Positions 7,957 to 18,006 of a stretch of 64,000 nucleotides of DNA are shown here, one piece after another. Location: assembly GCA_937872985.1 (NCBI GenBank), contig CALMUW010000087.1, positions 1-64,000 of the forward strand, written 5' to 3'. Position 1 is the first letter of the stretch. Each line of letters starts with the position of its first letter. This DNA comes from an uncultured Alphaproteobacteria bacterium. GTDB lineage: Bacteria > Pseudomonadota > Alphaproteobacteria > Rhizobiales > Aestuariivirgaceae. The notes below the pieces were generated by a model that was not told the origin of the DNA, did not search any database, and worked only from the letters and a program-made list of their open reading frames with translations. Position numbers and translations under genes: made by a program.

Positions 7957-8186
7957 GATCGGCCTCCTGACATGAGCCGTCCGCTCAAATCCTCCGGCGC
8001 GGGCCGGCGGTTCTATGGCAAGGTGTAGGGGTTCAACGTGCCCATCGGTGAAAAGTTCCGCCTGCGCATGGCTTGGTGATCAGCACCTGGGCGCCACCAG
8101 CGAGAAGAGGCGCCCGGCAAAAGCCGTGGCCTCGTCCTCATCCCCACCGGGGTTCTGGTTTATCTGAAATGATCGTATCATGAGTC

Positions 8187-12847: not shown

Positions 12848-14206
12848 ATGACGCCCGACCGACCCTTGCCGCCCGTCTTTCTTCCCTGTGAAAACAAGGC
12901 CCGGGAATTTGACGCCAAATTGCTGCTGGCGGGAATCCTGGCAGAGCGTGGGCATGTGGTCTACGTCGGCTCGCGCAATCTCATGCATCTGGCTCTGGCG
13001 CGATTGCCGCGCGGCATCTATCTGGGCAAGGATGTGCGCCACTCCTCGCGGCATGTGGCGCGCCTGCTGCGCCTTCTGGGGCAGCGTTTCGTGGCCATGG
13101 ATGAAGAGGGCCTGATCTATTATTCGCGGGCCGACTATGTGCGCCTGCGCGTTCATCCCCAGGTGTTGGCAGCGGCGGAAAAACTCCTGGCCTGGGGACC
13201 GGACAATGCCCAGGCCTGGCGCGAGGCATCCTGCTATGACGGCACCCCCATCGTCGAAACGGGCAATGGCCGCATGGACCTGCTGCGCCCCGATTTCATG
13301 GGCCTGCATCAGCGCGAGGCCGAGGCCATCCGCGCCCGCCATGGCCGCTTCGTTCTCATCAATACCAATTTCGGCTCACTCAATCACTTCTTCAAAAATC
13401 TGACGCCGCTGGCGCCACCGGAGAAACTGGGAGAAGCCGCCGACCCCTGGCAGGCCGAACTTTCCCGCCATCGCTATGCGGTGTTCAATGCCTTCACCGC
13501 GCTCGTTCCGCAGCTGGCGAAGGCCTTCCCCGAGCGTCACTTCATCATCCGGCCACACCCTTCGGAAAATCATGAGGTGTGGCAAAAGGCGGCGGGCGGG
13601 GCGGCCAATGTGGCGGTGATCAACCAGGGCAGCGTGGTGGCGTGGCTTCTTGCCTGTGACAGCCTCATCCACAACAGCTGCACCACCGGCATTGAAGCCT
13701 ATCTGCTCAACCGCCGGGCTCTGGCCTATCTGCCGGTCAGGTCGGCCCGCTTCGACCTGCACCTGGCCAATGACCTCGGCATAGCCGCCGAAAGCGCCGA
13801 TCAGGTGATCGGGCTGCTGCGCGAGGGCTTTGCCACAGGTGAGGCCGCCGCGGCGCGAAGCCCGGCGCGCGAGGCCGTCATTGCCCGCCACATCAGCAAC
13901 ACCGGCGGCAGGCTGGCGAGCGAAGCCATTGCGGATGAACTGGAAGGCTTGGCCTCACCAAGGGGAAGTCGGGTTCTCCGTCCGCTGGGCATGGCCTATG
14001 CCGAGGCGCGGGCGCTCATCAAGCGGCGCAACGCCCATCGCACCGGGCACAAGTCCAATGTCGCCTATACCCATCACCGCTTTCCACCGACGCCATTGGC
14101 CGAGGCCAGCCAGCGACTCCGTGACATCGGTTTGGGCCTGCGCCGCTTTCAGGGGTTGCGGGTCACGGCCTATGCGCCCGACGTGTTCATCGTCACGCGT
14201 CAGTAA
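12848..14206 (+). CDS. Surface-carbohydrate glycosyltransferase-like protein
   Basis: 452-aa soluble GT-B-like protein of the family labelled surface carbohydrate biosynthesis protein. Visible motifs are an N-terminal nucleotide-fold half (VFLPCENKAREFDAKLLL at 10-27), RPHPSE at 235-240 and NSCTTGIEA at 276-284; the last two are typical of the donor-binding half in polymer-type glycosyl and glycerophosphate transferases. No membrane segment. It runs towards neuC; the two stops overlap by 7 nt (14200-14206). With neuCBA next to it, a role in adding nonulosonic acid or assembling the glycan that carries it is likely, but acceptor and donor are inferred. Confidence 0.7.
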   Translation: MTPDRPLPPVFLPCENKAREFDAKLLLAGILAERGHVVYVGSRNLMHLALARLPRGIYLGKDVRHSSRHVARLLRLLGQRFVAMDEEGLIYYSRADYVRLRVHPQVLAAAEKLLAWGPDNAQAWREASCYDGTPIVETGNGRMDLLRPDFMGLHQREAEAIRARHGRFVLINTNFGSLNHFFKNLTPLAPPEKLGEAADPWQAELSRHRYAVFNAFTALVPQLAKAFPERHFIIRPHPSENHEVWQKAAGGAANVAVINQGSVVAWLLACDSLIHNSCTTGIEAYLLNRRALAYLPVRSARFDLHLANDLGIAAESADQVIGLLREGFATGEAAAARSPAREAVIARHISNTGGRLASEAIADELEGLASPRGSRVLRPLGMAYAEARALIKRRNAHRTGHKSNVAYTHHRFPPTPLAEASQRLRDIGLGLRRFQGLRVTAYAPDVFIVTRQ

Positions 14207-15363
14207 ACCAGGGCCTTTTCAATGGTCGGCGTCACCGTGGCCAGAACCTCGGCAATGCGCTGGCCGGCGTGGCCGTCGCCATAGATGTCATCGCGCGGGC
14301 GTTCAGTTTGACGCCACATGTTTGCGATGGCGGCGGCAATGGCGGTGGCATCATGGGGCACGTCCACGACATTGCGGCCGCGGTCGCGCCGGGTCTGGCG
14401 ATCACCGATGTTGACGGCGGGCACACCGAGCCAGGAACATTCGCGGATGGCGACCGAGGAATTGCCGATGATGCCCCGGCTGTTGATCAGCACACTGAGG
14501 AAATCGGCGGGCGCCATGTTCTTGTAGAAATGGATGGGGGCTTCGGGATGAAATTCGCGAAAAGTGCGGATGGCCCTGGAGGTGGCATCCGAGCCTGCGT
14601 CGACATTGGGCCAGAACCACAGGGCGGGATGGCCGCAGGCCTGCACCGCCTTCAACGTCTCCTCGGTCTGGACGCGGGCCTGCTGATATTGTGTCGTGAC
14701 CGGATGCTGCATGACCACGAGATAGGGCCGGGTCAGGTCGACCGGCTGGCCGACACCAGAATACTTGGCGGCGAGTTCTGCCATGTCACGCGGTTCGGCG
14801 GCCATGGCCTGACGGGCGAGGTCGATGGAGGGGCAGCCGGTCACGAAGACGCTTTCGGGCCGCTCACCCATGTTGCGCACGCGCGCCGCTGCCGGTTCCG
14901 ACGACACAAGGTGGATGTCGGCGAGCTTGGTGTTGGCGTGGCGGGTCTTTTCGTCGATGGAGCCTGTAACCTCGCCGCCCTGCACATGCACCAGGGGGAT
15001 ATTCATGTAGGCGGCGGCAATGGAGGTGGCGATGGTTTCGTAGCGGTCGGCGATGGTGATCACCATGTCGGGTTTCAGGTCGGCGAAGATGCCGGCCAGT
15101 TCGACGATGCCAAGACCGGTGGACTTGGCCGAGGTGAGCAGGGTTTCACCCTCGATGATCATGTAGGCGGTGCGATCCACCCTGAAGCCTTCGCGCTCGA
15201 TGACCTTGACGGCATTGCCATAGCGGTCGAGCAGGGCCGAGGCTGCCACGACGAGTTGCAGGTCCAGCGCCGGGTGTTCGCGGATGGCGGTCAAGGCCGA
15301 CTTGATGCGCGAATAGGATGGGCGCGCCGTGATCACCACACAGACTTTACGCTTGCTCGTCAC
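14200..15363 (-). CDS. neuC: UDP-N-acetylglucosamine 2-epimerase (hydrolysing), NeuC-like
   Basis: 387-aa epimerase of the NeuC/LegG type that makes ManNAc (or a 2,4-diacetamido analogue) from the UDP- or GDP-sugar, first step of sialic/legionaminic acid synthesis. Motifs: ITARPSYSRIK at about 8-18, HVQGGEVTGSIDE near 124-136, GNSSVAIRE near 310-318. Start is GTG at 15363, overlapping the neuB stop as GTGA, so translation is coupled. Last gene of neuA-neuB-neuC. Whether it acts on UDP-GlcNAc or a modified sugar cannot be read from sequence; no accessory legionaminate genes are present nearby. Confidence 0.88.
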   Translation of the reverse strand: MTSKRKVCVVITARPSYSRIKSALTAIREHPALDLQLVVAASALLDRYGNAVKVIEREGFRVDRTAYMIIEGETLLTSAKSTGLGIVELAGIFADLKPDMVITIADRYETIATSIAAAYMNIPLVHVQGGEVTGSIDEKTRHANTKLADIHLVSSEPAAARVRNMGERPESVFVTGCPSIDLARQAMAAEPRDMAELAAKYSGVGQPVDLTRPYLVVMQHPVTTQYQQARVQTEETLKAVQACGHPALWFWPNVDAGSDATSRAIRTFREFHPEAPIHFYKNMAPADFLSVLINSRGIIGNSSVAIRECSWLGVPAVNIGDRQTRRDRGRNVVDVPHDATAIAAAIANMWRQTERPRDDIYGDGHAGQRIAEVLATVTPTIEKALVY

Positions 15364-16406
15364 TGCACGTCCTCCGGCTTCAATACGTCATTGCGCTTCA
15401 CGGCGCGATTCAGGGTGCGGCCAATGGTGACGTCCAATTGCGCCGCCGGAATGCCGGTGCCGGGCTTTTTCACACCCAGATGTTCACGTTTCAAGACTGT
15501 GCCCTGGGGCAGGTCCTGAAGCGCCACGACGCTTTTGAAGAATATCGCGCGCATGGGGACGACGCGCGGATCAATGGCCTCCTTGTTCAGGGGGGCAGCC
15601 TTCATGCGTTCCATGAAGCCCACGCCGTCCACCAGCACCTTCAATTCATCGGGCGTGAGGGAGGCCACCACATCAGGACCAAACTGGGTGCGGCTGAGGG
15701 TGAGGTGAACTTCGATCAGTTCCGCGCCATGGGCCGCAACCGCAGCGAGGCCGGGATAGATGGTGGCGGAATGATCGGAAATGCCCACGGCGCAGGAGAA
15801 CCTCCGGCGCAGGTCAGCCAGCACGTTGAGACCGATGGCCTCCGGCGGCGAGGGATATTGGGTGGTGCACTGGAAGATGGCGAAGGGGGCGGCGTGGGCT
15901 TGCACCACTGCCACGGCGGCGCCGATCTCGGTCATGGGGCTCATGCCGGTGGAAAGCATGACGGGTTTTCCCGTCTGGGCCATGGCGGCGACCATGGCCA
16001 GGTTGGTCAATTCGCCGGAGGCCACCTTCCAGGCGGCAACTCCCAGACGCTCCAGCAATTCCACCGCCTTCATGGAAAAGGGCGACGACAGGAAGACGAG
16101 GCCCCGGTCCTCCGCGTGGACCTTGAGGCCCGCCCATTGTTCGGCGGTAAATTCCATGCGCCGCCAATAGTCGAAGCGGGTTTCGTCCTGACGCGAGAAT
16201 TTCACCCGCCAGGGTTCGGCGGGGGTGGACTCCTCGGCGGCAATATGAGTCTGAAACTTGACCGCCGTGGCCCCGGTCTGGGCGGCGGCATCGATGTAAG
16301 CATGGGCCATGCCCAGCGAGCCGTCATGGGCCTGGGCCACTTCGGCAATCACGGCACAGGCGGCGCCGGGTTTCGGGTCTGCGAGCCAATGGGCGGGTTG
16401 GGTCAT
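15360..16406 (-). CDS. neuB: N-acetylneuraminate (nonulosonate) synthase
   Basis: 348-aa NeuB-family synthase condensing ManNAc-like sugar with phosphoenolpyruvate. The N-terminal TIM barrel begins CAVIAEVAQAHDGSLG at about 17-32 and contains VKFQTH (about 49-54), the KVASGEL motif (about 131-137) and GISDHS (about 196-201). A C-terminal SAF/antifreeze-like domain starts near 285 (VALQDLPQGTVL) and ends with RAVKRNDVLKPED. Full length for the family. Middle gene of neuA-neuB-neuC: 46 bp after neuA, 4-nt overlap with neuC. Confidence 0.93.
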   Translation of the reverse strand: MTQPAHWLADPKPGAACAVIAEVAQAHDGSLGMAHAYIDAAAQTGATAVKFQTHIAAEESTPAEPWRVKFSRQDETRFDYWRRMEFTAEQWAGLKVHAEDRGLVFLSSPFSMKAVELLERLGVAAWKVASGELTNLAMVAAMAQTGKPVMLSTGMSPMTEIGAAVAVVQAHAAPFAIFQCTTQYPSPPEAIGLNVLADLRRRFSCAVGISDHSATIYPGLAAVAAHGAELIEVHLTLSRTQFGPDVVASLTPDELKVLVDGVGFMERMKAAPLNKEAIDPRVVPMRAIFFKSVVALQDLPQGTVLKREHLGVKKPGTGIPAAQLDVTIGRTLNRAVKRNDVLKPEDVQ

Positions 16407-16452
16407 GGTCGAGATATGTCAGGTTGCCCCGGCCATGGGAAGGGGCGGCGGT

Positions 16453-17166
16453 TCATGTGTCCCGGCGGGCGATGACCAGCCGGGCGAGGTCGAGGTCAAG
16501 GGGGCTGTCAATGTCGATCGCGGTCCATTCCGGCACGATGACGGCACGGCAATCCGCGCTCACCAGCGCGTTCTCTTCGGTCAGCACCCGGCGCAGGGAC
16601 GCATAACAGCCGCCGGAGCGGCGATAGACCCTGGGCAGGGACTGGCGCGGACGCGTATCCTCAAAGCCCTGGTCGATGAAGTTGATGAGCCGGTCGCCGC
16701 AGACCACGCGCTTCATGCGGAAGGGGTGCTTGGACTTTTCCTCGGCCACGGTGACCACGCTCTCCGACTGGCCCTCGGCGAGCTTGGCCAGGGCGGCGGC
16801 CAGATCTTCCGCCCGGGTGAAGGGACTGGTGGCCTGGAGCAGGGCCAAGGCGTCGTAGGGTGTGCCGGTGAGGCGCTCCATTTCGGCCAGTGCGTGCTGG
16901 GCAACCGGCAGGGAGGGCGTTGCGTCTTCGGCCAGCGCCGCGGGGCGCAGGAAGGGCACTTCAGCACCGTGAGCGCGGGCCACGGCGGCGATCTCCGCAT
17001 CCTCGGTGGAGACCACGATATTGGCAAAGCACCGGGCGGCGCGCGCGGCGGCGATGATGTGAGCGATGAGCGGCTTGCCGCCGAGGTCGGCAATATTCTT
17101 GCGGGGGATGCCCTTGGAACCGCCACGGGCCGGGATCAGGGCCAGACTACGCAGGGATGGAGCCAT
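16453..17166 (-). CDS. neuA: CMP-nonulosonate cytidylyltransferase (NeuA-like)
   Basis: 237-aa cytidylyltransferase that activates the nonulosonic acid with CTP. The nucleotide-binding start LALIPARGGSKGIPRKNI (about 8-25) and LLQATSPF (about 107-114) are hallmark motifs; the C-terminal IDIDSPLDLDLA gives the metal-binding aspartates. ATG start at 17166. First gene of the neuABC set, 58 bp after the 3' end of tRNA-His on the same strand. Product is inferred to be CMP-Neu5Ac or a close analogue. Confidence 0.92.
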   Translation of the reverse strand: MAPSLRSLALIPARGGSKGIPRKNIADLGGKPLIAHIIAAARAARCFANIVVSTEDAEIAAVARAHGAEVPFLRPAALAEDATPSLPVAQHALAEMERLTGTPYDALALLQATSPFTRAEDLAAALAKLAEGQSESVVTVAEEKSKHPFRMKRVVCGDRLINFIDQGFEDTRPRQSLPRVYRRSGGCYASLRRVLTEENALVSADCRAVIVPEWTAIDIDSPLDLDLARLVIARRDT

Positions 17167-17470: not shown

Positions 17471-17872
17471 TTACTTGCCGAAGGGCTTGCCGACGTTGGC
17501 GAAGGACTTGGTCATGCTGTCCTGCACCGGCTTCACGGTTTCCTTGGCCAGCGCCACCGACAGCTCATTGAACTGGGCGGTCTGGCGCTGCAAAGCCTCG
17601 GCCTGGGCCTTGATGAAGTCCTGCTGCAGGTTCATGACCTCGCCCAGGTCGCGGACGCCGAGGGCGCGGCGGGCGAATTCAAAGGCGGCGTTCATGTTGT
17701 CCTGGGTGATCTCGATGGCCTTGAGCTGGAGGTCGGCCAGGCGCTGCTTGTAGGCACCGGCGGCGGCGTCCATCATCTGGACATTGCCGTGGGCCATTTC
17801 GCTGGCCTTTTCAAAGGCGGCCTGGGCCTGATCCACCGACTGGCGGGCCATGGAGGCAATGCCATCGGGCAT
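17471..17872 (-). CDS. Phasin family protein (polyhydroxyalkanoate granule coat)
   Basis: About 133-aa (perhaps 146-aa) helical protein with the phasin domain: SVDQAQAAFEKASEMA near 12-27, then long amphipathic helices to the end. Phasins coat PHA/PHB granules and control their size. The start is uncertain: ATG 17872 is used here, but it has no SD, while GGGAGAG at 17916-17922 is followed 4 nt later by an in-frame AGG (17911) where ATG would be expected, within a G/C-run patch that may hold base errors. In-frame ATGs at 17959 and 17980 fall in or next to the promoter. The palindrome at 17973-18006 is probably the PhaR operator. Divergent from the histidine kinase gene. Confidence 0.85.
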   Translation of the reverse strand: MPDGIASMARQSVDQAQAAFEKASEMAHGNVQMMDAAAGAYKQRLADLQLKAIEITQDNMNAAFEFARRALGVRDLGEVMNLQQDFIKAQAEALQRQTAQFNELSVALAKETVKPVQDSMTKSFANVGKPFGK

Positions 17873-17956
17873 GGCGGGGGGGGCGCCCGGGGGGGTTTGC
17901 TTCTTCCGCCTGGGGCTCTCCCGTGGGCAGGGAATGGGTGAGGGAAATCTGCCCCT

Positions 17957-17985
17957 CATATAGGCCGGTTCATTGTGCATTGCAA
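17957..17985 (-). promoter_or_regulatory. Predicted phasin promoter
   Basis: On the minus strand TTGCAA (17985-17980), 17-nt spacer, TATATG (17962-17957). Start of transcription is predicted near 17950, so the GGGAGAG at 17922-17916 lies in the leader. The -35 sits inside the palindrome at 17973-18006. Confidence 0.5.
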
Positions 17986-18006
17986 CATAATTGTTGCGCT
18001 GCACAA
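17973..18006. promoter_or_regulatory. 34-bp imperfect palindrome, probable PhaR operator
   Basis: The arms read TTGTGCA-NN-GCAACA (minus strand) and its complement with a 4-nt centre; 26 of 34 positions are symmetric. TGC/GCA-rich palindromes of this kind are the known binding sites of PhaR, the PHB-responsive repressor of phasin genes in Paracoccus and relatives. It overlaps the -35 of the phasin promoter and lies 122 bp before the divergent kinase start. Confidence 0.6.

Follow-up and report, generated by a model that had tools for sequence, protein, structure and literature searches.

A phasin gene with a PhaR-type double operator carries AGG at the position of its relatives' ATG start codon

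The window, i.e. the whole stretch of 64,000 nucleotides that was analysed, contains a phasin gene on its minus strand (Table 1). The gene is very probably controlled by PhaR and begins at a codon preceded by a Shine-Dalgarno sequence (17911-17909), in which ATG was turned into AGG either by a base error or by a recent substitution. Gene and control are of a known kind. For the AGG, a change or an error in one base is most likely, rather than a novel mode of initiating translation.

Table 1. Positions of the phasin gene and its upstream elements in the window.
Feature	Position	Strand	Remarks
Inverted repeat of 34 bp, two boxes with flanks	17973-18006		repeat search
PhaR-type box 1, TGCAGCGCA, followed by ACA	17995-18003	-	palindromic
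PhaR-type box 2, TGCAATGCA	17976-17984	-	palindromic; overlaps the -35
-35-like TTGCAA	17980-17985	-	TTGNNN at the same place in 24/24 relatives
-10-like TATATG	17957-17962	-	17-bp spacer to the -35; TATATN equally spaced in 16/24 relatives
Shine-Dalgarno GGAG	17918-17921	-	6 nt before AGG; equal spacing in the nearest relative G014
AGG at the orthologous ATG start position	17909-17911	-	comparison with relatives
12 tag codons, RKKQTPPGAPPA	17873-17908	-	place of the relatives' N-terminal tag (M-x-KK...); runs C7 and C8 inside
First in-frame ATG after the -10 (MPDG)	17870-17872	-	without Shine-Dalgarno; internal Met in G014
Phasin gene body	17471-17872	-	133 aa plus stop; ATG 17872, stop 17473-17471

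The assembly to which the window belongs (G000) has a size of 2.65 Mb in 120 contigs. A search of 37 genomes of the genus gave a match to the phasin in 26 genomes, its own included, and no match in 11. For all comparisons below, the 24 relatives with a closer orthologue (E-value of 4.3e-16 or better) were used, and the weak match of G008 was left out. No second genome of the same species was present among the 37 genus genomes, and G014 is the nearest. When genome contigs were scanned for the phasin, seven loci were obtained, the best of which (90%) is the G014 contig.

The ORF from ATG 17872 contains the whole match to Phasin_2 (PF09361), at residues 21-119, in a profile search (51.1 bits, E-value 1.7e-13, cut-off 24.9). 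The phasin subfamily domain TIGR01841 exceeded its cut-off as well (36.4 bits, cut-off 30.2); the phasin_2 equivalog TIGR01985, scored from MPDG onward, missed it (76.6 bits, cut-off 99.7). Between the window and G014, the gene body has a dN of 0.061 and a dS of 0.30. The dN/dS of 0.20 is higher than in 20 of the 25 other ORF rows compared (0.045-0.150), which was counted against the main reading; two of the remaining five rows are at 0.19-0.20, and three, apparently ORFs which are no genes, are above 1. Window and G014 differ at 13 positions of the body, for which a vote was taken among 15 of the 23 other orthologues: the window residue was backed at eight positions and the G014 residue at four, with one tie. 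Judged by these substitutions, the body is under purifying selection, without decay or relaxed constraint. A pseudogene is supported neither by dN and dS nor by the residue vote. The product is an ordinary storage-granule phasin, apparently with repressor control of a well-known type.

On the minus strand, the leader reads GGGAGAG (17922-17916), CCCC and then AGG, in frame with ATG 17872-17870. The preliminary description, made from the letters of the window, had read the leader in this way, had expected a start at the AGG and had found the only later ATG to be without a Shine-Dalgarno sequence, all of which was borne out. At the corresponding place, each of the 24 genus orthologues has an upstream ATG which is in frame and has a GGAG or AGGA in front of it, and none has an AGG; accordingly, a comparison of N-termini, which had been proposed as a check, found no relative starting at MPDG. 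In the phasin of G014, which is 90% identical, ATG AGC AAG AAG is located 39 nt upstream of the internal ATG, and the counterpart in the window, AGG CGG AAG AAG, is likewise located 39 nt upstream of ATG 17872. Given this equal distance and the equal spacing from the Shine-Dalgarno sequence, the AGG occupies the orthologous start codon. A single base sets it apart from ATG, with G in place of T on the coding strand. KK is encoded within six codons of the start ATG in 20 of the 24 relatives, and AAG AAG is kept in the window. Further in-frame codons upstream of the start were present in some relatives, namely GTG or TTG in four (L008, L012, L016, L036) and another ATG in two (L031, L037). In the tag, conservation of codons 2-13 between window and G014 is poor (dN 0.44 and dS 0.65, on few sites). 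This also fits a tag which is no longer translated and was counted against the main reading.

Other places for the start were considered. The tag harbors a C8 and a C7 run close together on the coding strand (17876-17895), two of the nine long homopolymers counted in the window. A frameshift in these runs which shifts the true start was ruled out, since ATG, GTG and TTG are absent from all frames between the -10 and ATG 17872, and since the 39-nt distance is the same as in G014. The in-frame ATGs 17980 and 17959 were also ruled out because of their positions inside the operator and the -10, respectively. ATG 17872 is paired in the minimum-energy fold and unpaired in the centroid. The RNA fold around the start is not stronger than those of shuffled sequences (z of 0), hence, structure tells little about this ATG.

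Upstream of the gene, the arms of the inverted repeat (17973-17987 and 17992-18006) comprise 15 nt each, are 87% complementary and are separated by a gap of 4 nt. A 34-bp palindrome of the PhaR type with an embedded promoter had been described here. The inverted repeat was confirmed, but it consists of two separately palindromic boxes, which are adjacent and whose starts are 19 bp apart; likewise, the -35 is inside the repeat, but the -10 is outside. Assignment to PhaR agrees with the consensus TGCRNYGCASMA, deduced in Bradyrhizobium diazoefficiens according to the available part of PMC6201568. Box 2 and its flank together, TGCAATGCACAA, match this consensus exactly. Box 1, written as the 12-mer TGCAGCGCAACA, has one mismatch, which was counted against the main reading. 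The consensus thus supports a PhaR-type operator, for which binding of PhaR is predicted. A plain scan of the region for σ70 promoters and terminators gave 0 sites; the promoter elements are proposed because they are conserved in the relatives.

The boxes are conserved as well. Box 2 is present as an exact TGCN3GCA in 22 of the 24 relatives. For box 1, the exact motif was found at the same spacing in 11 of 24 and at a spacing of 18 bp in 2 of 24, and 11 of 24 have one mismatch. Each of the 24 orthologues has at least one exact box. When a long pattern of the site was searched in 25 genomes with at most one mismatch, it was found at ten places in ten genomes, by coordinates always just upstream of the phasin; the reversed pattern, used as a control in the same search, gave 0 matches. 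This recurrence upstream of the phasin exceeds chance. The matches are confined to the genus (10 of 16 genomes, own included, versus 0 of 9 from other families). Four of the six genus genomes without a match do not have the orthologue, and the remaining two (G004 and G009) have an orthologue with a more divergent site. If up to three mismatches were allowed, two further places in G000 matched the long pattern (with two and three mismatches), which look like chance hits.

The genome also encodes PhaR (PF07879, 110.8 bits, G000:C74:9019-9201), PhaC (PF07167) and PhaZ (PF06850). A second phasin gene (G000:C64:7688-7969) is preceded by two boxes either side of a TTGACA -35 (L098, about 8052-8091), and G014 has the same two-box arrangement (L101). 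Just upstream of the presumed start of phaZ (G000:C80), there is one box, TGCACTGCAACA. This box is located in the presumed leader, beside a TATGCT (L193, about 846-870). No box was found within the 2,996 nt scanned at phaR (G000:C74) or in the phaC promoter (G000:C98), and both results were counted against the main reading; a single box close to the 5' part of phaC falls inside the coding region. Thus, similar palindromes do occur at other PHA genes, as the assignment to PhaR had implied, but among phaR, phaC and phaZ, where a search had been proposed, only phaZ has one upstream in the stretches scanned.

Paired sites of this kind are known from phasin promoters. For phaP1 of B. diazoefficiens, the accessible part of PMC6201568 describes two PhaR sites, one on each side of the -35 at a distance of 6 bp. 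The arrangement in the window is similar in having two boxes of this consensus type around a phasin -35, and it differs in that the -35 is overlapped by one box and that 19 bp separate the starts of the boxes; here, the evidence is from sequence. In Sinorhizobium meliloti, according to the part of PMC12542648 at hand, paired palindromic PhaR (AniA) sites flank the -35 of phaP1 and phaP2, as demonstrated by EMSA and reporters, and a model is given in which PHB sequesters PhaR. The paired palindromic sites flanking the -35 resemble those of the window, for which the same sequestration model may be assumed. By analogy, free PhaR on the boxes over the -35 would block transcription, and accumulation of polyhydroxybutyrate would draw PhaR to the polymer, upon which phasin would be made. 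Translation in this lineage starts at the Shine-Dalgarno-preceded codon 17911-17909, which is ATG in the 24 relatives. If the AGG is real, some residual phasin may be produced weakly from ATG 17872 with the Phasin_2 domain intact.

For the start codons, about 678 kb of G000 were compared with 785 kb of G014, i.e. parts of both genomes. The survey covered 170 homologous ORFs with 56,071 aligned codons, and 159 of the 170 ORFs are coding-like according to the changes at the codon positions. Of the Shine-Dalgarno-preceded starts in G014, 91 were testable, and 79 of these coincide with the start in G000. Each of the remaining 12 was assessed by eye: five ORFs have another common start with a Shine-Dalgarno sequence in both genomes, one has a common start with a Shine-Dalgarno sequence in G014 only, two have a common ATG without a Shine-Dalgarno sequence, one carries ATG at the next codon, a further two are no genes and one is the phasin. 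Two of the non-matching ORFs are real genes according to Pfam, and their true starts are common to both genomes. The phasin is the only surveyed case in which a clear Shine-Dalgarno-ATG start of the relative stands against a kept Shine-Dalgarno sequence with a non-start codon, and its start is the only one judged lost among the 91 compared. Therefore, AGG is not habitually used as a start in the surveyed part, which gave no sign of genome-wide use either, and no other gene needing an AGG start was found in this partial survey. An earlier and cruder pass (65 ORFs, 23 starts unmatched) was superseded; over-extended starts in G014 accounted for most of its misses.

The same alignments were inspected for lesions. 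By eye, no clear internal stop was seen in a genuine gene among the 170 ORFs: each of the listed stops either precedes a start common to both genomes or is terminal, with the exception of a doubtful ORF of 118 codons. Four frame splits were seen, of which only one was taken as real. In this case, a one-base deletion compared to G014 frameshifts a gene on the same contig outside the window (L102:14835-15994, i.e. G000:C87:74834-75993), which, by the look of the protein, we assume to be RmuC-like. The compared part is not full of errors.

The tRNAs of the assembly were surveyed, too. There were 41 matches, of which 40 could be typed; the last one is cut by a contig end and was not recognised by ARAGORN. 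The typed tRNAs include one tRNA-Arg(CCT) and two tRNA-Met(CAT). Because the tRNA-Arg(CCT) has C1 paired with G72 and no GGG/CCC anticodon stem, it is presumably an ordinary elongator by the initiator hallmarks, which we assume to be missing from both tRNA-Met(CAT) as well. No AGG-reading initiator was found among the 40 typed tRNAs; the ordinary initiator was not recognised among them either, and it, or an altered one, may be missing from the assembly.

How the AGG originated can be explained in two ways, between which the evidence is about even. According to one, 17911-17909 is ATG in the population, and one base of the assembly is wrong. This has nearly an even chance: ATG is present in 24 of 24 orthologues, the phasin body is without decay, and the one-base deletion in the conserved gene on the same contig is a lesion typical of an imperfect consensus. 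On the other hand, the compared part is otherwise clean, with 79 of 91 Shine-Dalgarno-preceded starts at the same place and no clear internal stops. The other explanation, which we consider equally probable, is a real and recent ATG-to-AGG substitution, after which either ATG 17872 serves as a weak fallback and yields a phasin of 133 aa that lacks the lysine tag, or the gene is near-silent and covered by the second phasin. The fallback ORF keeps the whole Phasin_2 match (residues 21-119), the second phasin has PhaR-type boxes of its own, and the tag region is little conserved, which all suit such a substitution. However, ATG 17872 has no Shine-Dalgarno sequence, the original one before the AGG is preserved, and constraint on the body is not relaxed.

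Alternatively, the AGG, or an in-frame ATT at 17935-17933, could be a working non-canonical start which keeps translation of phasin low, in the manner of GTC in Streptomyces sigR. The intact Shine-Dalgarno sequence with its 6-nt spacing would suit this, but the codon is not conserved, ATG being used in 24 of 24 relatives, no other surveyed gene needs AGG, the single tRNA-Arg(CCT) is presumably elongator-like, and ATT 17935-17933 has no near Shine-Dalgarno sequence. We regard such a start as very improbable, notwithstanding the bacterial precedents of GTC in sigR and ATT in infC mentioned in the part of PMC5472188 available. For Streptomyces sigR, the same part reports a proven and conserved GTC start, with GTC in 32 of 34 species. 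The phasin resembles sigR in the non-canonical codon after a Shine-Dalgarno sequence and differs from it in that its relatives have ATG and that AGG departs from ATG at the second base. Marginally less probable still is a scheme in which initiation at AGG, or on a leader without AUG, is achieved mostly by the Shine-Dalgarno sequence, lowers the output of phasin and is sensitive to IF3, as for sigR. Initiation at AGG is possible but unsupported beyond the well-placed Shine-Dalgarno sequence.

If a base error has occurred, the AGG itself is of little importance; in that case, gene callers would put the start at the internal ATG without a Shine-Dalgarno sequence or inside the promoter, and such a start would drop the lysine tag seen in the relatives. 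A genuine AGG in actual use would mean a bacterial start codon mismatched in the middle base. All 24 phasin orthologues show a recognisable double PhaR-type operator, by which the known regulon would be extended to an alphaproteobacterial genus with mostly uncultured members.

The phasin gene is apparently transcribed alone. Downstream of it, beyond a tRNA-His, the window contains ORFs at 14200-17166 which, by the look of their sequences, we assume to be NeuC-, NeuB- and NeuA-like and to belong to a nonulosonic or sialic acid route.
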